Shown one piece after another: positions 2,523-16,229 of a stretch of 22,153 bases of DNA. Each line of letters starts with the position of its first letter. The stretch's first letter is position 1. This DNA is from a virus: the IMG/VR virus record IMGVR_UViG_3300034061_001074, positions 1 through 22,153 of that record; one strand, 5' to 3'. The notes beneath the pieces are model-generated. The model saw only the letters and a list, made by a program, of their open reading frames with translations, searched no databases and was not told the DNA's origin. Position numbers and translations under genes: made by a program.

Positions 2523-2728
2523 GTCAGTGGCGTGATGTTATTGGCCTTTTCAAAGGCCAGGACTTGGGATAGCGGATACCGCACCCGTGGCGTACCGGCT
2601 GGAAAGCCGATGCGCGGGATGGTGTAATACTTAGGACCAATGCCGCGTGCGCGTTGGTTTTTAATAGCGGCTGGCTTTAGCCCCCAACGCGCTGCTAGTT
2701 GGTCATTGGTCAGATACGGTTCAGTCAT
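2519..2728 (-). CDS. Small HTH protein, excisionase/AlpA-like
   Basis: A 69-residue protein with the pattern of excisionase-type winged helix-turn-helix proteins (MerR/HTH_17 class). TNDQLAARWGLKPAAIKNQRARG forms the helix-turn-helix, and a wing-like segment ends RVRYPLSQVLAFEKAN. Family members bind DNA as excisionases or transcriptional regulators. No integrase is in the window, so a regulatory role within the recombination operon is as likely as excision. It overlaps RecT upstream through ATGACTGA and SSB downstream through ATGA. Confidence 0.8.
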   Translation of the reverse strand: MTEPYLTNDQLAARWGLKPAAIKNQRARGIGPKYYTIPRIGFPAGTPRVRYPLSQVLAFEKANNITPLT

Positions 2729-3479
2729 CAGCGAATGGATCCTCGGTTGCAGGTACCGCTAGCTCGGTTTCCTTGGCTAGTGCCAATCCCAGCAGTTTGC
2801 TGTGCTGCTCATCGCTTAGGTCAGCCTTGCGCACTTCCATGCGGTCGGTTACCTCTTGCAGCTTGGCCATGGTATCGGCCTTGGCGATAGCAGCCTTGCC
2901 AGCTTGGAACAGCTTGGCATCGCCCTTGGCAGGCAGTGCAGGCGCTGCGGTCACAGTGACAGGCTCAACCTCGGCTTGGTGCATTTCATCGGTGCTGTAC
3001 ACACCGGACATGTCAGCAGGGAATGCCTTGCGCAGTGCCAATGCTTCAGAGCATTTGGCAATCATCGCAGCGCCCATCTTGGACCAAAGCCCCTGGCCGG
3101 CGTTGTAATCCGCAAAGCGCGCCACACCAGTGAATGGATGCGTGCTGCCCTTGCGATGGATGATGGTTTTGGCCGCAGCGGGTGGCTTGCTGCCAAGCCA
3201 TACATCAGTCCACTGGCCGTCGTCACCACACCAGTACGTCTCACTGCCGTCCAATTGTCCGGTGCGCTCAGCAATGGCGCGCAAGCCATCAATGCCGGCC
3301 TGAATGGTCATGCGCCCACTACGTCGGATGGCGTAGATCTGCTTGGAGAACGGATCTAGCCCAGTGCGCTGGCAGGCATAGGCAAACAGGCGCAGTTCAT
3401 CGTTGCTGCAGCCTGGGGCAATAGTCGTGCTGATCAGTTGGGTTTGCTCTGGGGTCCAGAGCGTGATACTAGAAGTCAT
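2721..3479 (-). CDS. bet: Phage recombination protein Bet (RecT/Red-beta-type ssDNA annealase)
   Basis: A 252-residue annealase. Diagnostic segments run in order: NDELRLFAYACQRTGLDPF, KQIYAIRR, MTIQAGIDGLRAIAERTGQ, a W-rich region (YWCGDDGQWTDVW), then WSKMGAAMIAKCSEALALR with KAFPADMSGVYSTDEM. These match the Bet branch of the RecT family, which anneals complementary ssDNA. The Ala/Lys-rich C-terminal third is variable, as is usual. It lies directly downstream of a RecE-like exonuclease (11-base overlap) and upstream of SSB, forming a complete end-processing and annealing module. Confidence 0.93.
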   Translation of the reverse strand: MTSSITLWTPEQTQLISTTIAPGCSNDELRLFAYACQRTGLDPFSKQIYAIRRSGRMTIQAGIDGLRAIAERTGQLDGSETYWCGDDGQWTDVWLGSKPPAAAKTIIHRKGSTHPFTGVARFADYNAGQGLWSKMGAAMIAKCSEALALRKAFPADMSGVYSTDEMHQAEVEPVTVTAAPALPAKGDAKLFQAGKAAIAKADTMAKLQEVTDRMEVRKADLSDEQHSKLLGLALAKETELAVPATEDPFADD

Positions 3480-4263
3480 CGGAAGTGATGGTTGGGTTGG
3501 CAGTCAATGCCCATGAAGGCAGGCTGAGCGTTTGGCAGTCATCGCCGTAGCCAGGCCACTCGCTAGTAGCGCGGCAGTCGGCAATCATGCGTAGGTCACG
3601 TTGCCGTAGCTCGTTGCCGGCAGCCAAGGCCGCAGCGTCAAGCTCGTAAACGGCAACCGCGTACGGTGCAGTCTTCTCGACAGCAATGAACACAAAACGC
3701 TCAGCACCATGCAGACCAGACAGGTAATGACTGGCTTGAGTATGGTAGCGGAAGGTGGCCACGCTTTTGGCAAAGCCCGCTGGTGATGCGTCCGTAGTGG
3801 TTTTGAGGTCAACCACAGTGGTGCCGGAGTACCAGTCGGGGCGGCATTTGCACCGCAAGCCGGTAGCTGCATCATCCCACCAGAACGACTGCTCAGCCTT
3901 GCCATAGGCAAGCAATGCAGATGCTGCAGGGTGACTGCGGACGCTATCTGCCATGCAGTTAGCAGTAAGCATGTCGCTAGGCGTGACAGCTTCAATGCCG
4001 CGTGCAGCCATGTCGGCAGCCTGCTCTTTGCCAGCCTTGGTATTGCGTGGACCGCAAACGCCAAAACGCTTGCTTGCCTCATCAGGCTCTAGCACTACGC
4101 AATGCACCAGCGTGCCAAGCCGCATGGCAGCAGTTGGCTCAACTGGTATCCGGAGTGGGTTGATGTATCGCGCCCAGTAGTGGTATGGGCTGCGTGCGAT
4201 GGCGTGCAGATGCGAAGCGCTGACGGCAGGGTCAGCGTGGTACTGCTCGTTGCCAATGGTCAT
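3469..4263 (-). CDS. RecE-like PD-(D/E)XK exonuclease, partner of the annealase
   Basis: A 264-residue protein of the exodeoxyribonuclease VIII/YqaJ-like superfamily (DUF3799-type). Seen: N-terminal YHADPAVSASHLHAIARSP, then LGTLVHCVVLEPD (H54), AEQSFWW (E124), KCRPDWY (D143) and VVDLKTT (D152, K154), which make up the nuclease core. Such enzymes resect dsDNA 5' ends to feed the annealase encoded next. The ATG at 4263 is preferred over an upstream in-frame start because it overlaps the previous TGA by ATGA and begins at the family's usual N-terminus (MTIGNEQYH). Confidence 0.88.
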   Translation of the reverse strand: MTIGNEQYHADPAVSASHLHAIARSPYHYWARYINPLRIPVEPTAAMRLGTLVHCVVLEPDEASKRFGVCGPRNTKAGKEQAADMAARGIEAVTPSDMLTANCMADSVRSHPAASALLAYGKAEQSFWWDDAATGLRCKCRPDWYSGTTVVDLKTTTDASPAGFAKSVATFRYHTQASHYLSGLHGAERFVFIAVEKTAPYAVAVYELDAAALAAGNELRQRDLRMIADCRATSEWPGYGDDCQTLSLPSWALTANPTITSDDF

Positions 4264-4451
4264 GCTGCCCTCAGCTGGCGATGCAAGTGCGTCTGTGGGC
4301 CGTAGCACTGCTGCAACTCTGGAAATGCAAGCATCACGCGCTGTTTGTTATCAGGGTCGGCGTGCAGCGTCGCCTCAGCCAAGCGGCGGTAGAAACCGCC
4401 GCCGTGGTTAATAGCTGTCTGCAGCGTCCAATACGTGTCGTTTGTGGTCAT
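4260..4451 (-). CDS. Small hypothetical phage protein (TLQTAINHGGGFYRRLAEA...AFPELQQCYGP)
   Basis: A 63-residue protein. It has an aromatic N-terminus (TYWTLQTAIN), a glycine turn and helix (HGGGFYRRLAEATLHADPDN), and the motif RVMLAFPELQQCYGP. I recall this pattern from short phage proteins found next to recombination genes, but no function is known to me. ATG 4451 is chosen because it overlaps the previous TGA (ATGA). Helical and soluble, with no metal site. Confidence 0.7.
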   Translation of the reverse strand: MTTNDTYWTLQTAINHGGGFYRRLAEATLHADPDNKQRVMLAFPELQQCYGPQTHLHRQLRAA

Positions 4452-6187: not shown

Positions 6188-6768
6188 GGGCTAGCTGCTG
6201 CATCGGTGGTGGCAGCGTAACTGTGCCCCATTGCTTGGCCATCGCCTCGGCTACACCTATATATGTACGGCTGCGATTTTTCCAACGGTCTGGGCCGCTC
6301 ATCATCCACACCTTCGGCTCGCGGCCTTTAACCACGTTGGTGGGCTTTAACCGCGGAAGGTTCTTAAGCCATAAGCAGGTGGCCTTAGTTTCACCATGCC
6401 CAAACTGCCACGGCTGGATGATCTGAGTGGGGGGGGGCAATGGCAGTGCTGATCACGCTGACCGGGTTCTCAATGCACCAACGGTCGATGGGCGCCGCCA
6501 TCAGCAAGCGCACGAAATCCAGCGCTTCCGCTTGTTCACGCTGCTTGCGGTGGAAATGCCTGCTACCAGATACCGCCAAATGCGTGCACGGCGGATGGGC
6601 AATCATCAGATCCCATCCATCACCCAGCACATTCTCTACCGGCTGCTGCAAGTGCCATTCCGGGTCACCTTCGCATGGCAGCAGGTCACAGCTCCACGCG
6701 TCATGGCCTCGGCTGCGGAACGCATCACGAACGCGAGCGCTGTATTCGCAAGCGACTAAAACCCTCAT
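6177..6768 (-). pseudogene. DNA cytosine methyltransferase-like gene split by a 1-base shift in a G9 run
   Basis: Two frames together make one intact protein. The first (from ATG 6768) starts MRVLVACEYSARVRDAFRS, carries AHPPCTHLA (PPC at 59-61) and IENP (100-102), and derails after STAIAPP. The second resumes with TQIIQPWQFGHGETKATCLW and ends near 6177. The PPC and ENP motifs resemble motifs IV and VI of cytosine-5 methyltransferases, a family common in phages without a neighbouring endonuclease. The break is in a run of nine Gs on the plus strand (6429-6437). Eight would restore a 196-residue frame. Whether this is a real mutation, a slippage switch or a sequencing error cannot be told here. 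It overlaps the helicase stop by ATGA. Confidence 0.8.
6429..6437. repeat. G9 homopolymer at the frameshift point
   Basis: Nine consecutive Gs on the plus strand (C9 in the coding direction). This is exactly where the methyltransferase-like reading frame changes. Removing one base joins both halves in frame at APPTQIIQPW. Confidence 0.85.
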
Positions 6769-8327
6769 CCGCCTTGCCTTTTAAGCAACCTAGCCTGATA
6801 CACCCTCTCAGCCCATCCGCGTTTGTAGCCGCGTTGCTGCGCTAGCTGGCGGAGATCGTCGAGGCTTTGCGCACCGCCTTGCTGGCGTTTTGCTCCTTGG
6901 CTGTCCGGTCTAACGCGTGATCTGTCGACATCCATTTTATCTCCAGGTCCAATCAATCCAGCCTGGGTAGCTTCTACGGTAATAGTTTTTTCTACCCATT
7001 GACCATTAACTTTTTCAGCGGAATATCTACACACCTCGAATCCACTCATCCACCCGTAGTCTGAACCAAAATAAACTTCTACGGGGCTTCGATATCTAAG
7101 CCACGATTGATCCAGAGATTTTACCTCCACCAACTCACCATCCACCTGCTGCAGCTCGCGTGCCTCTGGTGCAAAGCGATGCCCGCATTCACCGCATTGC
7201 TTGGCCTGGCTGGCCATGGCGGCAAAGCAGCTGGGGCAGACCTTGACGCTGGGCGCTGCCTCGCGGTCGCGCTTTTTAAGGCCGTCTAGCGTCCACTCAC
7301 GCGGTTCGAGGTGATGGCCCAGCCGCAAGGTGTTGCCGACATGATCCAGCACCACTGCAGCAGCCTTGCCAGGTGATGGCCTAAGGCACCGGCCGATCAT
7401 CTGCAGGTGCAGGCTGGTAGATGCAGTAGGCCGTAGCAGGATGCAGCCGCCGACCGAGGGCACGTCCACGCCTTCGCCGATGAGTGCGCACGAGGTGAGC
7501 ACGCGTATCCGACCGGTGCCTAGCGCCTGCAGCAGGTCACGCCGTTGCTCGCTGGTCATGCTGCCGTCAATGCTGGCGGCTGGGATGCCGGCACCCATGA
7601 ACAGCCTTGCTACTGCCTCGGCATGGGCTACGCTGCAGCAGAAGGCGATTGCCGTCTGCCCATCAAGGTGTTTGCGGTAGTGGCTTAAGCAGTCGCCCAT
7701 GATCGTGCCGACACGGTGCTCTGCCTCTTTGGTGTCGAAGTCACCCATCCGTTTGCGCAGGCCGGTGGTATCGAAGCCCGGTGGTGCCAGCACCTTGGCC
7801 GCGGCGAGGTAGCCGTTGTCGGTTAGCCAGGCAGCGCTTGGCCCCTCCACCATGACCTGATAGTGCTCGCCAAGGCCGCGGCCGTCAAGGCGGACTGGGG
7901 TTGCAGTGACACCCAGCAGGTGCGCTTGGTGGAAATGCTCCAGCGTTTTTGCCCAGGTGCCGGCATTGCTGTGGTGCGCCTCGTCGATGATCACCAGCTG
8001 AAAGAAATCACGCGGCAGTTTGTGCAGCCTGCGGGCAAGCGTTTGGACTGATGCCACTTGCACTGCATGGCTGAGATCCATGCCGCGGTTGGCGGCAATC
8101 ACGCCATGCGGCATCGGCAGCGCGCGGCACGCTTGATCCAGTAGCTCCTGACGGTGTACCGCGATCAGCACGCGGTTGCCCTTGCGGGCGGCGAATTGGG
8201 CAATGTGGCTGAAGCACACGGTCTTGCCAGCGCCTGTGGGCAGTACGGCTAGCACTTTGCGATGGCCTAGCTGGTATTGCAGGCGGATGTCGGTTATTAG
8301 CTGTTGCTGGTAGGGGCGGAGGTTCAT
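6765..8327 (-). CDS. SF2 DEAD/DEAH-type helicase with zinc ribbon
   Basis: A 520-residue superfamily 2 helicase. Motif I is LPTGAGKT (29-36), motif II DEAH (115-118), motif III TAT (141-143) and motif VI QMIGRCLRP (309-317). A four-Cys ribbon, CPSC and CGEC (C364, C367, C378, C381), follows. The C-terminal region (about 405-460, WLRYRSPVEVYFGSDYGW) is of a type found in phage helicases. The organisation resembles RadD and phage UvsW-like branch-migration enzymes. Roles in replication-fork repair or recombination are likely but unproven. It overlaps the upstream and downstream genes by ATGA. Confidence 0.9.
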   Translation of the reverse strand: MNLRPYQQQLITDIRLQYQLGHRKVLAVLPTGAGKTVCFSHIAQFAARKGNRVLIAVHRQELLDQACRALPMPHGVIAANRGMDLSHAVQVASVQTLARRLHKLPRDFFQLVIIDEAHHSNAGTWAKTLEHFHQAHLLGVTATPVRLDGRGLGEHYQVMVEGPSAAWLTDNGYLAAAKVLAPPGFDTTGLRKRMGDFDTKEAEHRVGTIMGDCLSHYRKHLDGQTAIAFCCSVAHAEAVARLFMGAGIPAASIDGSMTSEQRRDLLQALGTGRIRVLTSCALIGEGVDVPSVGGCILLRPTASTSLHLQMIGRCLRPSPGKAAAVVLDHVGNTLRLGHHLEPREWTLDGLKKRDREAAPSVKVCPSCFAAMASQAKQCGECGHRFAPEARELQQVDGELVEVKSLDQSWLRYRSPVEVYFGSDYGWMSGFEVCRYSAEKVNGQWVEKTITVEATQAGLIGPGDKMDVDRSRVRPDSQGAKRQQGGAQSLDDLRQLAQQRGYKRGWAERVYQARLLKRQGG

Positions 8328-10582
8328 ACCAGCTCTCCCTGCTTATGCGACTCCACCATGCTTAGGTTTTTGGCGGCGCAATTGAAATAACTAGGCTTCA
8401 GTTCGAAGCCTACAAACCGGCGCTGCATCTGCAAACTGACGTAGCCCTCGCTGCCGATGCCAGCAAACGGCGACAGCACCAGATCGCCGGGATTGCTCCA
8501 TAGCTGCAGGCCGCGGCGGATCACCTCCAGCTGCAGCGGGCAGATGTGACGTTCATCCTCATTGGCGCGGGCGCTGCGGTATTGCAGCGTGTCTGATGGG
8601 TTAATGTCCATCCACACCGGGCTGGCGTAACGCTGCCAAATGTTGATGCTGTCTTTGACCGCATCGCCCGTTTTGGCCGGTGCATTCTCGCCGGCAAACT
8701 CAGTGAATGGCCCCGCGCATGGCTCAAGGTTGTCGCCCAGCTTGCGCACCGTTACCAGATAGTCAGGAATGCCCTGACGGCTAAGCGCTGAGTCCTTACG
8801 CACTTGCTTATGCAGCAGCCCGATCGCCTTGGTGCGCTGCATTGCGGTGACCGGATCTTTCCAGATGCACACCTCGCTATGGAATACGAAGCCCGCAGCT
8901 TGGAATATCCGCAGCATGTCGCCACGAAAGTCCTTCACGCCGATGAAACCATCGCGTTCCTTGCTGCTGGGCAGATTCATGCAGTGGAAGCTGATCAACC
9001 GGCCCGGCATCAGCACGCGATGCAGCTCCTTGGCTAGGTAAACGAAGTGATCGAAGAACTCCTGGTCGTTGCGGCTGTTGCCCATGTCGCGGTCGCTGTT
9101 GCTGTAGGTGTAAAGCGACGCGAATGGCGGACTGAAGATGCTGTAATGGATGGAGTCGCTGTCGAGTTGCTTAATGCTCTCCACGCAGTCGCCCATGTAC
9201 AGGTCCCAGTTGTCGCCGGACTTGTGCTCTGTAATGTGCGGTGCAACCTGACGCTGGATCTTTTTGAGTTGTTCCATTGTTTGTTGCTTCATGATTTCAA
9301 CCATTGATTGGGCCATCTGGATGCTGTCCGCCTCTTTGCGGCGGATGTTTTCAATGACGCGGCCTTCGGCTATGTCGTAGACAATGTGCGCATTAACCGG
9401 TTGCTCTTGCCCAAACCGCCAGCACCTACGGATGGCTTGATAAAAAGCCTCATAGCTGTGACTCAAGCCAACAAATGCGACGTTGTGGCAGCGCTGGAAG
9501 TTGAGGCCAAAGCCAAAGATGCTCGACTTGCTGACCAGTACGCGAATCTTGCCATCCTGAAAGTCGATGGCAGCTTGCCGCTTGTGGTCGTCGCTGTCAG
9601 AACCAGACACCTCAACCGCGCCATTGATGGCAGCCGTTAGCGCTTTGCTCTCATCGTTGAGATCACACCACACCATCCATTGCTCAGTGTTGCTGTTGGC
9701 AAGTTTGGCAGCAGCAGCCACGCGGAGGGCGAGGGATGCCTTGCGCACTTGCCGTTGATCGCTCAGCGTCCGCGCTTCCATGGCAAACAGCGCCATCTGG
9801 CCGGCATCGTCCGCCACTGCCTCGCGTGGCGTTTCAACAGTGCAGTCTTGAATCTGCAATGCCGGCAGGATGAAGTTGCCATCGTCGTAGCCAAGGTCTG
9901 ATGGCTTGCGGATGGTCACCGCCCAACTGCAGACCCATTCCCAGAACTTGCTCTTGGCGTGTCCTTTGATGCGCCACTTAGCAGTGTCGCCACCGTCATG
10001 CACAAAGAACATTGCCAGCATCTCGGTCCTAGTCATCACGCCAATGAACTCAGCATGGTTGCCAAGCTCCATGTGGTCGTTTGGTGCTGGTGTCGCTGAG
10101 CATGCCAGACGGAATGGCGTTTGGCTAAAGCTGGAGATGATCTGATTGCGGATCTTGCCGGTATAGGCCTTGAGAATGCTGGACTCGTCGAGCACCACGC
10201 CTTGGAAGGCGGATGAATCGAAGTGGCCGAGCTTTTCGTAGTTGGTGATCGTGATGCCGGGCTTCACCTCATCTTGCGTTGCGGCAAAGCTGCATTGGAT
10301 GCCGAACTTGGCGCCCTCGCGCACGGTCTGGTGCGCCACGGCTAGCGGTGCCAACACCAGCACGTTGCCACCAGTGCGCTTATGCACTTGATGCGCCCAC
10401 TCAAGCTGCATGGCGGTTTTGCCCATGCCGCAGTCAGCCCAGATGCAGAACTTGCCGACGCGGCAAGCCATGGTCACGATGTCCTGCTGAAACGGGAACA
10501 GCGGCGCCGTGAACTGGTCGGGGTCAAAGCCCGCAGGTGCGCAGGCTGTGGATTTGGAGGCTAGGAAGTCTTTGTAGGTCAT
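8324..10582 (-). CDS. SNF2-type helicase fused to a beta-class N4/N6 DNA methyltransferase
   Basis: A 752-residue fusion. The N-terminal part (1-450) is a SNF2-like ATPase: CGMGKT (51-56), LDES (131-134), SAT (162-164), SIFGFGLNFQ (354-363) and RRCWRFGQ (385-392). The C-terminal part (about 455-752) is an amino-methyltransferase: MGDCVESI, catalytic SPPF (484-487), then SAM-binding SPFAGIGSEG (704-713) and FVGFELKPSYF. Catalytic motif before SAM motif defines the beta class, which methylates adenine N6 or cytosine N4. The product could translocate along DNA while modifying it. ATG 10582 is preferred to a start ten codons upstream because MTYKDFLASK fits the family's N-terminus. It is the first gene of the proximal minus-strand block. 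Confidence 0.9.
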   Translation of the reverse strand: MTYKDFLASKSTACAPAGFDPDQFTAPLFPFQQDIVTMACRVGKFCIWADCGMGKTAMQLEWAHQVHKRTGGNVLVLAPLAVAHQTVREGAKFGIQCSFAATQDEVKPGITITNYEKLGHFDSSAFQGVVLDESSILKAYTGKIRNQIISSFSQTPFRLACSATPAPNDHMELGNHAEFIGVMTRTEMLAMFFVHDGGDTAKWRIKGHAKSKFWEWVCSWAVTIRKPSDLGYDDGNFILPALQIQDCTVETPREAVADDAGQMALFAMEARTLSDQRQVRKASLALRVAAAAKLANSNTEQWMVWCDLNDESKALTAAINGAVEVSGSDSDDHKRQAAIDFQDGKIRVLVSKSSIFGFGLNFQRCHNVAFVGLSHSYEAFYQAIRRCWRFGQEQPVNAHIVYDIAEGRVIENIRRKEADSIQMAQSMVEIMKQQTMEQLKKIQRQVAPHITEHKSGDNWDLYMGDCVESIKQLDSDSIHYSIFSPPFASLYTYSNSDRDMGNSRNDQEFFDHFVYLAKELHRVLMPGRLISFHCMNLPSSKERDGFIGVKDFRGDMLRIFQAAGFVFHSEVCIWKDPVTAMQRTKAIGLLHKQVRKDSALSRQGIPDYLVTVRKLGDNLEPCAGPFTEFAGENAPAKTGDAVKDSINIWQRYASPVWMDINPSDTLQYRSARANEDERHICPLQLEVIRRGLQLWSNPGDLVLSPFAGIGSEGYVSLQMQRRFVGFELKPSYFNCAAKNLSMVESHKQGELV

Positions 10583-10592
10583 GGCTGCCGTT

Positions 10593-10635
10593 TGGCATTG
10601 CCACCGTAGCAACCGTTGCTACGCTTGGCAAGCGT
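10593..10635. promoter_or_regulatory. Triple-palindrome operator hub between divergent operons
   Basis: Three perfect dyads run almost end to end: TGGCA-T-TGCCA (10593-10603), CGTAGCAAC-C-GTTGCTACG (10605-10623) and ACGCTTG-G-CAAGCGT (10621-10635). They fill the gap between the methyltransferase-helicase start (10582) and the RHH gene start (10649), so they can control both directions. The outer two share a TGGCA/TTGGCAA core. No convincing -35/-10 pair could be assigned by eye. Confidence 0.65.
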
Positions 10636-10648
10636 CCACCCCAAACTC

Positions 10649-10786
10649 GTGCGTCTCGTCCATCCAACCCATATACGGCTGACGCCAGACCTATTGCAGC
10701 GGCTTGATTCTTGGCGCGGTGATCGCATGAATCGCGCAACCGCTATCCGATTGCTGCTAGAGCAGGCGCTCAAGGAGATCAAGTGA
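10649..10786 (+). CDS. Ribbon-helix-helix (CopG/Arc-type) regulator, 45 aa
   Basis: Read directly from the plus strand; the frame is open from 10610 to the TGA at 10784-10786. From a GTG at 10649 it encodes 45 residues. THIRLTPDLLQRLDSW gives a beta strand plus first helix, and RATAIRLLLEQALKEI gives the second helix. This is the classic RHH layout (strand, amphipathic helix, loop with polar turn, hydrophobic helix). RHH dimers bind short operator repeats, and the palindromes just upstream make autoregulation of this divergent promoter a natural inference. The start codon is uncertain (a TTG at 10616 is also in frame, and no Shine-Dalgarno is clear). Its stop overlaps the next GTG by four bases. 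Confidence 0.65.
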   Translation: MRLVHPTHIRLTPDLLQRLDSWRGDRMNRATAIRLLLEQALKEIK

Positions 10787-12852
10787 CCCTTGCCCAAGAG
10801 CTAAACCGCCTGCCCGATGGGTGGGGATACGTTGCTGTTGACGGCCAGAAGCGGCCGTATCAACTCAAGTGGCAGGACAACCCACTAGACAAAGCCAAAC
10901 TGCAGGCCGAGCTTGACTCCGGTCGCGCTCGTGCTATTGGCGTGTGCTGTGGCGTGCCATCGGGTGGTTTGCTGTTCCTTGATCACGACGGCCGCAGCGC
11001 CAGCACCATCCTTCGAGACTGGGGTTGCCCCATGTCGTCGTTGCCGCGCTCGTGGACTGTTACCTCCGGTCGTGATGGCAGGTTTCAAGTCATCTACCGC
11101 GTGCCAGAGGAGTACTGGTCTGGCATCGCCACACGCAAATACAAGTCAGGTGTCACCGACTCCGACGGCAAACCGGAGCAGGTGGAACTCCGTTGGACCG
11201 GCTGCCAGTCTGTTGTAGCCGGCGCGCACCCAACCACCAGCGGCTACCGCTGGGTAGCCAAATACAGCCCCGAAGATCTCGACCTAGCCGAAGCGCCGCT
11301 TTGCCTGATCGAGCGGATGCTCAAACCAGTAGCCGAGCCGGTGGTCTTGCCGCCAGTGATAAATGGTGCTGACGATGCCACCAGGGCGCGCTCTTACCTA
11401 GACGCCCTCGCCAGCAGTCGCGCTGATGACTACGACGACTGGCTAGCCGTTGGCATGGCGCTCCATAGCGTTGGCGATGATGCCTTGCTAGACGAGTGGG
11501 AGCAGTGGTCAGCGCAATCCGGCAAGCACAAGCCCAGTGATTGCCAGCGCAAGTGGAAGAGCTTCAAGAAGTCCGGCATCAGCCTTGGCACCCTTGGCGA
11601 CATGGCCAAAAAAGACGGCTGGCAGCCGCGGCGTCGCGAGCCGCAGCGCAGGGTGGCGACAGGTGACGGCAGTGGTGACGGCGATGCCAAACCGCCGATC
11701 ATCACGAAGCCGGAAAAACTGGAAACCGCAGAGCTGTTAGCCCTGCTGCGCAGCCAAACCGATGAGATCCGCTACAACGTTTTCACCCAGCAGATCGAAA
11801 TCAAGGGCAAGGTCATCGATGGCGCCGATCGCTTTTACCTGAAGCTGGCAGAGATGGGTTACAAGGTCGGCAAGGAGCTGGCTATTGACTGCCTTGTGCA
11901 GGTCGCCAACGAGAACCCTTACGACCCCGTAACCGAGTACCTGAACCATTGCGAGCAGCACGTCCAGCCGGCTTACATCGACGGCCTCGCTACCGCATAC
12001 CTTCGCCCAGAGGACCAAGGCGGTGAGGCCACGATCTACGACGAGATGCTTAAGCGCACCTTGATCGGCGCTGTTGCTCGTGCCTTTGATCCTGGTTTCA
12101 AGCATGACACCGCCTGCGTGATCATGGGCGATCAAGGTGCATACAAATCCAGCTTCTGGGGCTGTTTAGGTGGTCCATTTTACTCAGATGCATTGGGTGA
12201 CATCAGCACCAAGGACGATGTAATGGTGCTTCACCGCTCGTGGATCATGGAATGGGCAGAGCTTGATCACATCACCAATCGTAAGCACGCTGGGCAAGTC
12301 AAGGCGTTTTTATCGCAGGCGGTAGATCTACTCCGTGTGCCATATGGCAAGGCCGTTGAAGCATTCCCAAGGCGTGGCATCATTGTTGGCACCACTAATA
12401 AAACCGCTGGCTTTCTCGTGGATGAAACCGGAAACCGTCGTTTCTGGGTGATACCTACGACTAGGACACAGGTGGATCAAATCAACACTGCGATGCTCTT
12501 AATGGAGCGTGACGCCATCTGGTCTGCAGCGGTTCATGCCTACCGCAACGGTGAAACCAGCCGCCTTCCTGCAGCCATGGAGCTAGCCGTTCAGCAGGAA
12601 AACGATGCCTACATGATCGAGTCGCCATGGCGCGCCGCCATCCTTTCCTACCTCGCCGAACGCCGCAGCACTGACCTGTTGACCTCCGAGGAGATCCTTG
12701 CCAAGGCCATCCAGAAGCCTATGGAGCGCCAGTCCAAGGCCGACCAGATGCAAGTGGCTTCGATCCTGAAGGAGCTGGGTTGGGCGAAACGCCGCGAATC
12801 GACCGGCAAGAGGCGCTGGTACTACCAGTTGGACGGCCAACATGTCGGCTAG
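10783..12852 (+). CDS. Primase-polymerase / VapE-type helicase replication protein
   Basis: A 689-residue multidomain replication protein. The N-terminus (1-190) is a bifunctional primase-polymerase domain: GGLLFLDHDG with D67 and D69, TVTSGRDGRFQVIYR, and VELRWTGCQSVVAGAHPTT. The middle (about 200-262) is a PriCT-2-like helical domain (DDYDDWLAVGMALHS, then LDEWEQWSAQSGK). The C-terminal part is a VapE/VirE-type SF3-like ATPase with Walker A GDQGAYKS (449-456), an acidic segment WIMEWAELD and FLVDETGNRRFWVIP (from about 543). It should prime and unwind phage DNA. The start is GTG at 10783 with AAGGAG five bases upstream, and it is coupled to the RHH gene by GTGA. Confidence 0.92.
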   Translation: MTLAQELNRLPDGWGYVAVDGQKRPYQLKWQDNPLDKAKLQAELDSGRARAIGVCCGVPSGGLLFLDHDGRSASTILRDWGCPMSSLPRSWTVTSGRDGRFQVIYRVPEEYWSGIATRKYKSGVTDSDGKPEQVELRWTGCQSVVAGAHPTTSGYRWVAKYSPEDLDLAEAPLCLIERMLKPVAEPVVLPPVINGADDATRARSYLDALASSRADDYDDWLAVGMALHSVGDDALLDEWEQWSAQSGKHKPSDCQRKWKSFKKSGISLGTLGDMAKKDGWQPRRREPQRRVATGDGSGDGDAKPPIITKPEKLETAELLALLRSQTDEIRYNVFTQQIEIKGKVIDGADRFYLKLAEMGYKVGKELAIDCLVQVANENPYDPVTEYLNHCEQHVQPAYIDGLATAYLRPEDQGGEATIYDEMLKRTLIGAVARAFDPGFKHDTACVIMGDQGAYKSSFWGCLGGPFYSDALGDISTKDDVMVLHRSWIMEWAELDHITNRKHAGQVKAFLSQAVDLLRVPYGKAVEAFPRRGIIVGTTNKTAGFLVDETGNRRFWVIPTTRTQVDQINTAMLLMERDAIWSAAVHAYRNGETSRLPAAMELAVQQENDAYMIESPWRAAILSYLAERRSTDLLTSEEILAKAIQKPMERQSKADQMQVASILKELGWAKRRESTGKRRWYYQLDGQHVG

Positions 12853-13070: not shown

Positions 13071-13364
13071 ATGGAACAAATGCAAGAAATCAAAGTCCGT
13101 TTCCAGCCCGAAGACCTCACCGCCTTGGATCAGCAGGCCGCATCACTCGGCACCAGCCGCGCGCAGCTGATCCGTGACCGTTCCTTAAGCAGTGCGGTTG
13201 CAAGGTTGACCACAGCCGACTACCATCGCCTCGTGTCCGGTGCTGCTGCCCACATGCGGGGTGATCTGTCGCACCGACACGTTGAGCATCTCGTTGCGTA
13301 TGTCATCACAAGACTCGATCAGCATTCCCGCCAAGCAGTCGCCGGTGATCAACCGGCTTCATGA
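13071..13364 (+). CDS. Ribbon-helix-helix protein with C-terminal extension
   Basis: A 97-residue protein. Residues about 5-42 form an RHH unit: QEIKVRFQPEDLTALDQQA, then TSRAQLIRDRSL. The rest (about 43-97) is a helical extension (LTTADYHRLVSGAA, HVEHLVAYVITRLDQH) that I do not recognise. RHH proteins dimerise and bind DNA through the paired strands. The TTAGG array directly upstream is the obvious candidate target. It starts at ATG 13071 or at the next in-frame ATG, 13080; no Shine-Dalgarno is visible. It overlaps the next gene and lies two genes before dnaN in the same operon. Confidence 0.75.
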   Translation: MEQMQEIKVRFQPEDLTALDQQAASLGTSRAQLIRDRSLSSAVARLTTADYHRLVSGAAAHMRGDLSHRHVEHLVAYVITRLDQHSRQAVAGDQPAS

Positions 13365-13512
13365 CTGCATCACGCAGGCATTGGCTTACGCCCATGCCAT
13401 CCGCGACAACGCACAGGACGACAGCCAGCCGATCCCGCTCGAACTCGTCGGTTCGTTTCAAGTCGATTGCGACGCCATCATCAACGCCCTAGCCGAAGCT
13501 GCTGCACAATGA
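13300..13512 (+). CDS. Small hypothetical protein upstream of dnaN
   Basis: A soluble acidic protein of 70 residues from ATG 13300, or 55 residues from the in-frame GTG at 13345. The shorter form is more likely the core, because NRLHDCITQALAYAHAIRD onwards looks protein-like while the first 15 residues look like an out-of-frame reading of the RHH gene. The C-terminus (DCDAIINALAEAAAQ) is helical. Its stop overlaps the dnaN start as ATGA, so it is translationally coupled to the clamp. No known family recognised. Confidence 0.55.
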   Translation: MSSQDSISIPAKQSPVINRLHDCITQALAYAHAIRDNAQDDSQPIPLELVGSFQVDCDAIINALAEAAAQ

Positions 13513-14555
13513 AATTCACCTGCTCACAGTTCGACCTGTCCCATGCCCTCCGCGCTGTATCCCGCGCTGTAGGCACCGGACGCTCTGGTCATCCGATCCT
13601 TGCTGGCGTGCTCCTTGCTGCTGATGACGGCGCCGTGCGCATCACCGCATATGACCTTGACCTTGGCATCAGCACCGCCATCACTGCTGCCGTAGACACC
13701 GTTGGCGCTTGCGTGGTGCCCCATCGGCTGCTAGCGGACATCACAGGCCGCCTAGACGCTTCTGAGGCGCTGTCGCTGGCCGTGGACGGTACACGCGTCA
13801 CGCTGACCGCTGCAGGCGGCTCCTACAGCCTCTCCGTGGCCTCTGCGGAGGATTTCCCTGCATTGCCCGTGGTGGATGCTGCTGCAGGCGTTGCTGTGGA
13901 CCTCACAGCGCCATTGGCGGCCGTATTGCCTGCTGCAGCCACCGATGCGTCCAAGCAGCTGCTGACCGGCGTGCATGTCACCATCGCAAGCGGCGCCCTG
14001 CGCCTTGAGGCCACAGACGGTCATCGCCTTGCCGTGCGTACCGCCGACACCGATGCCGCAGACCTCGATCTCGTGCTGCCTGCGCGCACCCTGCAGCAGA
14101 TCCGCCAGCCGGCCACCATCACCGCAGACAAGCATCAAGCCGCTATCGCCCTTGCTGATGGCACCATGATCGTTTCGCGGTTATTGGACGGCACCTACCC
14201 GAACGTGCAAGCGCTGATCCCTCCCAGCTACGAGCACACGGCTATTGTCAGCCGCCTTGCCATGCTGGCTGCCCTTGAGCGCGTAGCCGTTATCGCCGAC
14301 AGCCACAACAGCGTCGTCAAGCTCACCGCGAAATCCAAGCGGCTTACCATTGCCGCCGAGGCTGAAGCCAACAGCGGGTCAGAGTCCATTGCCATGGATG
14401 GCACGCTGCCAACCCTTGCCTTCAACGTGCATTACCTCATTGATGCCTTCAAGCATCTAGACGGTGATACTGCTACCATCAGCGGCAACAGCTCAACTAC
14501 TCCTGTAGTATTTGAGCCTGGTCTTACACTGGTAATGCCAGTTCAGGTACGCTGA
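13509..14555 (+). CDS. dnaN: DNA polymerase III beta subunit (sliding clamp), phage-encoded
   Basis: A 348-residue beta clamp, close to but somewhat shorter than cyanobacterial DnaN (about 370-390 residues), which it resembles from the first residues (MKFTCSQFDLSHALRAVSRA). Three-domain landmarks are present: DASKQLLTGVH, LEATDGHRLAV (H172), LLDGTYPNVQALIP, NVHYLIDAF (N306, Y309) and the C-terminal MPVQVR (343-348). These positions form the partner-binding pocket of the clamp, so it should still bind polymerase clamp motifs. It tethers polymerase to DNA for processive synthesis. ATG 13509 overlaps the upstream stop by ATGA; an in-frame start at 13467 is unlikely because the DnaN N-terminus is at 13509. 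Confidence 0.95.
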   Translation: MKFTCSQFDLSHALRAVSRAVGTGRSGHPILAGVLLAADDGAVRITAYDLDLGISTAITAAVDTVGACVVPHRLLADITGRLDASEALSLAVDGTRVTLTAAGGSYSLSVASAEDFPALPVVDAAAGVAVDLTAPLAAVLPAAATDASKQLLTGVHVTIASGALRLEATDGHRLAVRTADTDAADLDLVLPARTLQQIRQPATITADKHQAAIALADGTMIVSRLLDGTYPNVQALIPPSYEHTAIVSRLAMLAALERVAVIADSHNSVVKLTAKSKRLTIAAEAEANSGSESIAMDGTLPTLAFNVHYLIDAFKHLDGDTATISGNSSTTPVVFEPGLTLVMPVQVR

Positions 14556-14559
14556 TCAC

Positions 14560-14883
14560 ATGGCACGCAAAAGCACTAAAGATGAAATCCAGGCCCGTGT
14601 TAATGAGGTCTATGGGTTGCTTTTGCGTGCCTACAATCATAACCAAATCGTTCAATACGGTTCCGAAAAGTGGAATGTAAGCGAACGCCAAGTAAGGGAT
14701 TACTTAGCTGAAGCGCGCAAACTACTATCAATTGATGCTGAAATTGCTAGACCGCAGTGGCTGGAAGCTGCGCTTGCGCGGTTGCAAGATTATGAGCGCA
14801 TCGCGCGCGAAAATGGACAGGTTGGTCTTGCAATGACTGCTATTGAAAAACAGGCACGGTTGCTGCGATTTGAAATGTCGTGA
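14560..14883 (+). CDS. terS: Terminase small subunit (probable)
   Basis: A 107-residue basic/helical protein with an N-terminal helix-turn-helix-like region (VYGLLLRAYNHNQIVQYG, then WNVSERQVRDYLAEARK). A long helix follows that could drive oligomerisation (RLQDYERIARENGQVGLAM). Small terminases recognise the packaging site and hand DNA to the large subunit. The identification rests on size, HTH and its immediate position before terL with a GTGA overlap. Only four bases separate it from dnaN. Base composition is less G+C-rich than dnaN, suggesting a module junction. Confidence 0.8.
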   Translation: MARKSTKDEIQARVNEVYGLLLRAYNHNQIVQYGSEKWNVSERQVRDYLAEARKLLSIDAEIARPQWLEAALARLQDYERIARENGQVGLAMTAIEKQARLLRFEMS

Positions 14884-16229
14884 GCATCGTTGCTGGCATC
14901 TGTGAAGATGCCCCGCTGCTTAACTTCATGGAGATGCCAACGGCGGAGCACACAGGCGATCTACTGGCCCGCATTCGCGCAGATCTGCACCCTGGGCAGC
15001 TTGCGTTTGTGGATGACACCGCAACGCAGATCCTTGGTATCTCGGCCGGGTATGGCGCTGGCAAGACCAGGGCATTGTGCGCCAAGGCTGTGATGCTGGC
15101 CGCAGCCAATCAAGGGTTTATCGGCGCCGTGATGGAACCCACCGGCCCATTGATTCGTGACATCTGGCAGAACGACTTTGATGATTTCCTAGAGGCGTAT
15201 GACATCCCGTACACATTCAGGGCATCACCGCTGCCGGAGTACACGCTGCACCTGCCAGGTGGTGACACCAAGATCTTGTGCCGATCGTTTGAGAACTGGT
15301 CACGCATCATTGGTTTGAACCTTGCATGGGTGTTAGCGGACGAGATCGACACCGTGACGCCAGCCATTGCCAACAAGGCATTTCCTAAGATCCTTGGTCG
15401 CTTGCGATCAGGTAATGTCCGGCAGTTTGCAGCGGCCAGCACGCCAGAAGGCTTTCGCTGGATGTGGAATACGTTTGGCAGTGATGATGCCAAGGCGCGC
15501 GCAGATCGGCATCTGATCAAGATGCGCACCGTGGACAACCCGCACCTGCCGCCAGATTTCATTGAGCGACTGCAGGCCAACTACGATCCAAGCCTCCTCA
15601 AGGCATACCTAGACGGTGAATTTGTCAACCTCACCACTGGCCAAGTGTATGACCGCTTTGATCGCGCTAAGCACATTGTCACCGACCTACCAGACATCAG
15701 CCGCGAACCATTGCGCGTTGGCGTTGACTTTAACGTGGGCAACATGTCTGCCGTCATCGCCATCAGGCAAAGCAACACCCTGCTAGTAGTTGATGAGATC
15801 TCTGGCGCCCATGACACCGACGCCCTAGCGCAGTCGATCAAATCCAGATACCCAACGCATCGTATCTATGTTTACCCTGACGCCAGCGGCGGCAACCGCA
15901 GCACCAATGCTGCGCAAACAGACATCCAGATCCTTGAATCGTATGGCATGTCAAACCAATCGCCGCGCAGCAATCCTCCCGTCCGTGATCGCGTGGCTGC
16001 TGTTCAGGCTTTGCTGGAAAACGGCAAAGGTCAAGTGCGGCTGCAGGTAACAGACGGCTGCCGCAAGGTAATCGAGTGTCTTGAGCTGCAGTCTTACAAC
16101 GAGAAAGGTGAGCCTGACAAGGACGCAGGCTACGACCACATGAACGATGCGCTTGGGTACATCATCTGGCGTGAGTTCAACCCGCTGCACGCCAATGCTG
16201 GACGAAGCACTGGCATTAGGTTATATTAA
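14880..16229 (+). CDS. terL: Terminase large subunit
   Basis: A 449-residue packaging motor. The N-terminal ATPase has Walker A GYGAGKT (57-63), Walker B VLADE (151-155) and the coupling motif AASTPEG (185-191). The C-terminal RNase H-like nuclease has acidic residues in GVDFN (D283), VYPDAS (D334) and DHMNDALGY (D423), the normal three-site layout. It cuts concatemeric phage DNA and pumps it into the prohead through the portal. The start is GTG at 14880, overlapping the small-subunit stop as GTGA. Length is ordinary for the family. Confidence 0.95.
   Translation: MSIVAGICEDAPLLNFMEMPTAEHTGDLLARIRADLHPGQLAFVDDTATQILGISAGYGAGKTRALCAKAVMLAAANQGFIGAVMEPTGPLIRDIWQNDFDDFLEAYDIPYTFRASPLPEYTLHLPGGDTKILCRSFENWSRIIGLNLAWVLADEIDTVTPAIANKAFPKILGRLRSGNVRQFAAASTPEGFRWMWNTFGSDDAKARADRHLIKMRTVDNPHLPPDFIERLQANYDPSLLKAYLDGEFVNLTTGQVYDRFDRAKHIVTDLPDISREPLRVGVDFNVGNMSAVIAIRQSNTLLVVDEISGAHDTDALAQSIKSRYPTHRIYVYPDASGGNRSTNAAQTDIQILESYGMSNQSPRSNPPVRDRVAAVQALLENGKGQVRLQVTDGCRKVIECLELQSYNEKGEPDKDAGYDHMNDALGYIIWREFNPLHANAGRSTGIRLY

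Follow-up and report, generated by a model that had tools for sequence, protein, structure and literature searches.

A bacterial-type sliding clamp in cyanosiphoviruses and its possible service to the host polymerase

Introduction

Why would a phage encode the sliding clamp of a bacterial replicase when no polymerase of its own is in view? The question is raised by a dnaN-type gene at positions 13509-14555 (plus strand; 348 aa) of a 22,153-bp virus record, hereafter the window. The record covers part of the genome of a cyanosiphovirus whose relatives include KBS-S-2A and S-H1, two phages from Synechococcus WH7803 whose major capsid proteins share 74-75% identity with that of the window. Phages of this size are usually assumed to use the host replisome, and the clamp of phage T4, gp45, works with a phage polymerase and a phage loader. 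In the open literature that we searched, we found nothing on the function of DnaN-type clamps in phages without a polymerase. The reading that we favor, with a probability of about 0.6, is that the clamp, once captured, is loaded by the host and works for host Pol III on phage DNA.

Results

The gene product is a three-domain β clamp

The reading frame starts with ATG, and its product ends in MPVQVR. The three β-clamp domains (residues approximately 1-120, 121-237, and 238-348) were recognized in order and over the Pfam cut-offs (PF00712, 82 bits; PF02767, 56 bits; PF02768, 50 bits), and the full-length match to PHROG_947, "DNA polymerase processivity factor", covered residues 1-347 on profile positions 3-365 of 368 (E=6.8e-67). 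A PDB search returned 55 distinct sequences at E<0.001, all of them DNA polymerase III β clamps, including some fusions. The AlphaFold2 model, computed from a 36-row alignment, had a pLDDT of 94.0 and a pTM of 0.86, and among its 50 best Foldseek matches the TM scores to solved bacterial clamps were 0.82-0.94, with 0.92 for the Clostridioides difficile clamp 7ybd; many phage β clamps were matched as well. These results confirm that the product is a three-domain bacterial β clamp with a predicted clamp fold, as the original prediction of a full bacterial-type DnaN had it. The residues H172, N306, and Y309 and the C-terminal MPVQVR named in that prediction are all present, the last within the C-terminal segment of the partner-binding pocket (residues 341-348, LVMPVQVR; 14529-14552, plus strand).

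The prediction that such a clamp is unusual in phages did not hold: a bacterial DnaN matched 131 phage records, the S-H1 gene is already annotated, and PHROG_947 exists as a family. A first scan of IMG/VR found 21 loci with the clamp or close relatives, most of them 93-100% identical, and a wider scan found 366 stretches encoding a related clamp. Searches of a phage collection with two other clamps gave 111 and 131 matching records, the latter with the bacterial DnaN, although these counts are approximate because some records (e.g., Salmonella) resemble bacterial sequences misassigned to phages. DnaN-type clamps occur in records of phages of Arthrobacter, Mycobacterium, Nodularia, Microcystis, Salinibacter, Thermus, and Rhizobium. 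No clamp was detected in the related phages KBS-S-2A and MED4-184, indicating that the clamp is not indispensable to the group.

No polymerase or clamp loader was found in longer relatives

Because the window is a fragment covering only part of its own genome, the absence of a polymerase was tested on longer relatives, on which the argument rests. PF00476 was absent from 14 records and from 32 more related records, PF07733 from 41 related records, PF00136 from 40, and the clamp-loader family PF13177 from 16, with positive controls in every case. These searches, in which family B was represented by PF00136 rather than by the protein-primed PF03175, thus detected no polymerase of family A, B, or C across up to 46 related records. 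The relative G002 (45,032 bp) carries a 109-bp terminal repeat and was therefore taken as complete. Every reading frame above 300 aa in it either has another assignment or is antisense to an assigned gene, leaving no polymerase; those in sense encode a helicase, an ectoine-synthase-like/ParB protein, a PAPS-reductase/DUF3440 protein, the primase-helicase, the clamp, and terminase, portal, head, tail, and lysis proteins. The claim that no polymerase is in view thus stood for the window as well as for the long or apparently complete relatives searched, suggesting that the clamp is most likely lent to the host polymerase.

G002 also differs from the window in other genes. An ectoine-synthase-like domain fused to ParB_N (L026:3090-5347, minus strand) lies beside the PAPS-reductase/DUF3440 gene where the window has an SNF2 helicase-methylase, and G002 further carries a dCTP deaminase-like gene (L027:17715-18233, plus strand) and a sigma-70 gene (L027:18613-19500, minus strand).

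The clamp stays constant while the primase-helicase changes

In most loci, the gene order is primase-helicase, NikA-like gene, clamp, TerS-like gene, TerL, and portal. In the window (all on the plus strand), the primase-helicase (10783-12852) is followed by a small NikA-like protein (13071-13364; PF21983 at 24.8 bits, below the cut-off of 27, but conserved in position), the clamp, a possible small terminase subunit assigned by position only (14560-14883; phrog_34910, of unknown function), and the large terminase subunit TerL (14880-16229; by PHROG). The upstream gene had been described as a primase-polymerase/VapE protein; Pfam recognized VapE and PriCT_2 and PHROG a DNA primase/helicase, whereas no Prim-Pol domain was present. 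Three unrelated types of primase-helicase interchange at this one site (10783-12852 in the window; loci L127-L188) next to a constant clamp. Among the 53 loci with enough upstream DNA, 20 had the VapE type, 16 Toprim, 14 D5, and three none of these; as a few contigs are represented twice, such counts refer to loci and not to independent phages. When mapped onto a tree built from 66 clamps, the type of primase-helicase changed about 22 times, and one set of identical clamps carries two primase types. A clamp that remains constant while the initiator changes suggests a constant partner, i.e., the host machinery.

The SSB announced by the original prediction was found at 2178-2522 (PF00436), adjoined by a RecT-type annealing protein (2721-3479; PF03837) and an ExoVIII-type exonuclease (3469-4308; PF12684, phrog_412). 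A superfamily 2 helicase (6765-8327; PF04851/PF00271, phrog_16) and an SNF2-helicase/DNA-methylase fusion (8324-10612; 84% identical to S-CBS3 gp40) follow, all five genes being on the minus strand. At the left end, within short minus-strand reading frames, a 203-nt direct repeat (317-519 and 938-1140) was observed, its copies 93% identical and 621 nt apart. Rather than being a processivity factor for Pol III, the clamp could chiefly support phage recombination and repair, as a platform for RecT/ExoVIII, nucleases, and methylase, or the coupling of replication to packaging. RecT, ExoVIII, SSB, and a VRR nuclease are encoded by the same phage, the clamp adjoins terminase genes with TerL downstream in 70 of 79 loci, and T4 gp45 is described as doubling as an activator of late transcription (PMC2988020). 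However, the upstream gene is a primase-helicase in 50 of the 53 loci, and none of the phage proteins was found to carry a binding motif specific to the clamp. The sole match in a strict search for clamp-binding motifs was QMALF at residue 272 of the SNF2 helicase-methylase, with 0.19 matches expected by shuffling, and we rejected it as a clamp-specific pairing because the corresponding site in S-CBS3, a phage without a detected clamp, reads QMGLF. We therefore consider a recombination or packaging platform unlikely.

The clamp descends from a picocyanobacterial lineage

The window clamp is 44-48% identical to its best-matching DnaN proteins from Cyanobiaceae and 38-44% identical to the better-matching ones from other cyanobacteria. 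In a maximum-likelihood tree of 79 clamps, 22 cyanophage clamps formed one clade (100/100) within the Cyanobiaceae node (99/100), whereas the clamps of Rhizobium and Aurantimonas phages grouped with that of Escherichia coli. A single common clade of all compared phage clamps was rejected (AU p=3.5e-5). A position strictly inside Cyanobiaceae was favored by the best tree, but placement outside was not rejected (AU p=0.235). The predicted host-like, picocyanobacterial character is consequently well placed, with the cyanophage clamps as one clade inside or beside Cyanobiaceae DnaN. A scan of bacterial genomes gave matches of at most 36% identity and no close prophage relative. The best explanation is that an ancestral cyanosiphovirus captured dnaN once from a picocyanobacterial (Cyanobiaceae) lineage, after which the gene was inherited and remodeled in phages.

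Domain II is reduced

The remodeling is most visible in domain II. The segment from the start of the domain through its first inner helix (residues 124-142; 13878-13934, plus strand) is about 3 aa shorter than its counterpart in every bacterial clamp of the comparison, and the region of the second inner, channel-lining helix (residues approximately 191-201; 14079-14111, plus strand) is reduced to one predicted turn (residues 192-195). The spacing from DFP to LxG is 40 residues in 100 of 100 bacterial clamps, 35-37 in 38 cyanophage clamps, and 37 in the window clamp, and that from TDGHR to DGxYP is 64-84 residues in bacteria versus 55-61 in cyanophages. Shortened inner helices of domain II were thus found in 38/38 cyanophage clamps measured and in 0/100 bacterial ones, the latter being mostly from cyanobacteria or Firmicutes and hence not a broad sample. 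In the AlphaFold2 model (DSSP), the two helices span residues 133-142 and 192-195 (10 and 4 residues), compared with residues 135-148 and 212-222 (14 and 11 residues) in a model of Prochlorococcus DnaN. The window clamp is therefore below the usual bacterial length in domain II, with domains I and III as usual; two inner helices of bacterial length per domain are usual for DnaN but not strictly defining.

Short domain II segments were also observed in independently captured phage clamps (loci L254, L255, and L281), namely those of Rhizobium phages 16-3 and TM3_3_14B and, for one segment only, of Salinibacter phage M1EM-1. The two Rhizobium phages have 37 and 59 residues in the same two segments, and an alignment of the 16-3 clamp with related bacterial clamps reveals both of the gaps seen in the cyanophage clamps; other phage clamps vary. 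Phage-captured clamps might convergently slim down domain II and yet keep the partner pocket unchanged (in cyanophages, Rhizobium 16-3-type phages, and partly in the Salinibacter phage), a tentative idea that we regard as doubtful. If true, it would imply a phage-specific clamp design in which altered loading or sliding gives an advantage at the phage fork or keeps phage rings apart from host rings. The slimmed domain could also reveal which parts of the β clamp are dispensable.

The partner pocket is retained under purifying selection

We scored 19 pocket positions that are well established for the E. coli clamp. Their retention across 22 phages was 97.4%, compared with 57.6% over all 176 host-conserved columns, and 0 of 20,000 random sets of columns attained the pocket value; the predicted retention of the partner-binding pocket is thereby substantiated. 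At the dimer interface, 46% of host-conserved columns were kept, and 1406 of 20,000 random sets were equally low. Some host-invariant interface positions are altered in 22/22 phages (Arg at E. coli position 109, a one-residue deletion at 297, and Gly at 300). A selective change of the interface to avoid mixed rings with the host clamp was not upheld, since the divergence of the interface as a set was not significant. Arg24 (E. coli numbering), a DNA-facing residue, is present in 27 of 30 Cyanobiaceae and replaced by Gly in 18 of 22 phages. Together with the short helices of domain II, this replacement suggests that loading or DNA contact could be altered. Comparison with five relatives gave a dN/dS of 0.05-0.13, indicating purifying selection and contradicting the idea of a neutral relic.

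The same observations bear on whether the clamp could act as a decoy, sequestering the clamp partners of the host (Pol III, proteins of mismatch repair, translesion polymerases, or DnaA regulators) and thereby stopping host replication or repair. Near-perfect retention of the pocket amid drift is what a decoy would need too, and the alteration of DNA-facing and domain II channel elements would suit it. A pure decoy, however, would have no need of a whole three-domain ring subunit held at a dN/dS of about 0.1 with conserved length and predicted fold, which makes this explanation quite improbable. It is highly improbable that the clamp is a spare copy rendering replication insensitive to clamp inhibitors of competing phages or host defenses, because, although phage clamp inhibitors exist (the Gp168-β-clamp complex 7evp was among the structural matches) and the surface beyond the pocket has strongly diverged (about 40% of all clamp columns agree with the host consensus), inhibitors usually act on the DNA channel or on the pocket, which is unchanged in the phage clamp, and no inhibitor gene was identified.

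Discussion

The complete ring subunit is under purifying selection, its pocket is fixed, neither a phage polymerase nor a phage loader turned up in the searches, and the clamp persists irrespective of the primase type. All of this fits a clamp that the loader and Pol III of the host would use. The clamp would form a dimeric ring, which the host clamp loader would place on phage DNA. Through its unchanged peptide pocket, the ring could then tether host Pol III to forks started by the neighboring phage primase-helicase, of whichever type, and the phage would thereby add to the host clamp supply and bias synthesis toward its own genome. That the clamp dimerizes, is loaded by the host, binds host Pol III, and benefits the phage is inferred from the anatomy of the protein and from knowledge of its family. 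The new element is the evidence that the clamp was captured a single time from this group of hosts, that the neighboring primase was exchanged, and that one domain was partly lost. A clamp-only phage that keeps its clamp and pocket through changes of primase-helicase offers a simple, testable case of possible takeover of the host polymerase, and with the relative S-H1 from Synechococcus WH7803 the idea is open to test in culture.

The closest known system is S-H1 (MK105819), isolated on WH7803, whose AZB50554.1, annotated as "DNA polymerase III beta subunit", is 49-51% identical to the window clamp. The order of small gene, clamp, TerS-like gene, and TerL is the same in both and no polymerase is annotated in S-H1, but the upstream primase-helicase is of the Zn-ribbon/Toprim type in S-H1 and of the VapE type in the window. 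Rhizobium phage 16-3 (p081) and its relatives likewise have a bacterial-type β clamp with a short domain II in a mid-size phage. Their clamp was captured independently, however, as it groups with the E. coli clamp, unlike the cyanophage clamps, and 16-3 has a gene annotated as "DNA polymerase/primase", whereas no polymerase was detected in the relatives of the window. The DnaN of picocyanobacteria (Cyanobiaceae) shares with the phage clamp the fold, the pocket, and 44-48% identity in the best matches, but it is 376-390 aa long with full inner helices in domain II, in contrast to the phage clamps of about 346 aa with short helices. T4 gp45 is described as a trimer of two-domain subunits (PMC4858162). 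Both it and the window clamp are phage-encoded, but the window clamp has three domains and belongs to phages in whose searched relatives neither a phage polymerase nor a loader was detected.
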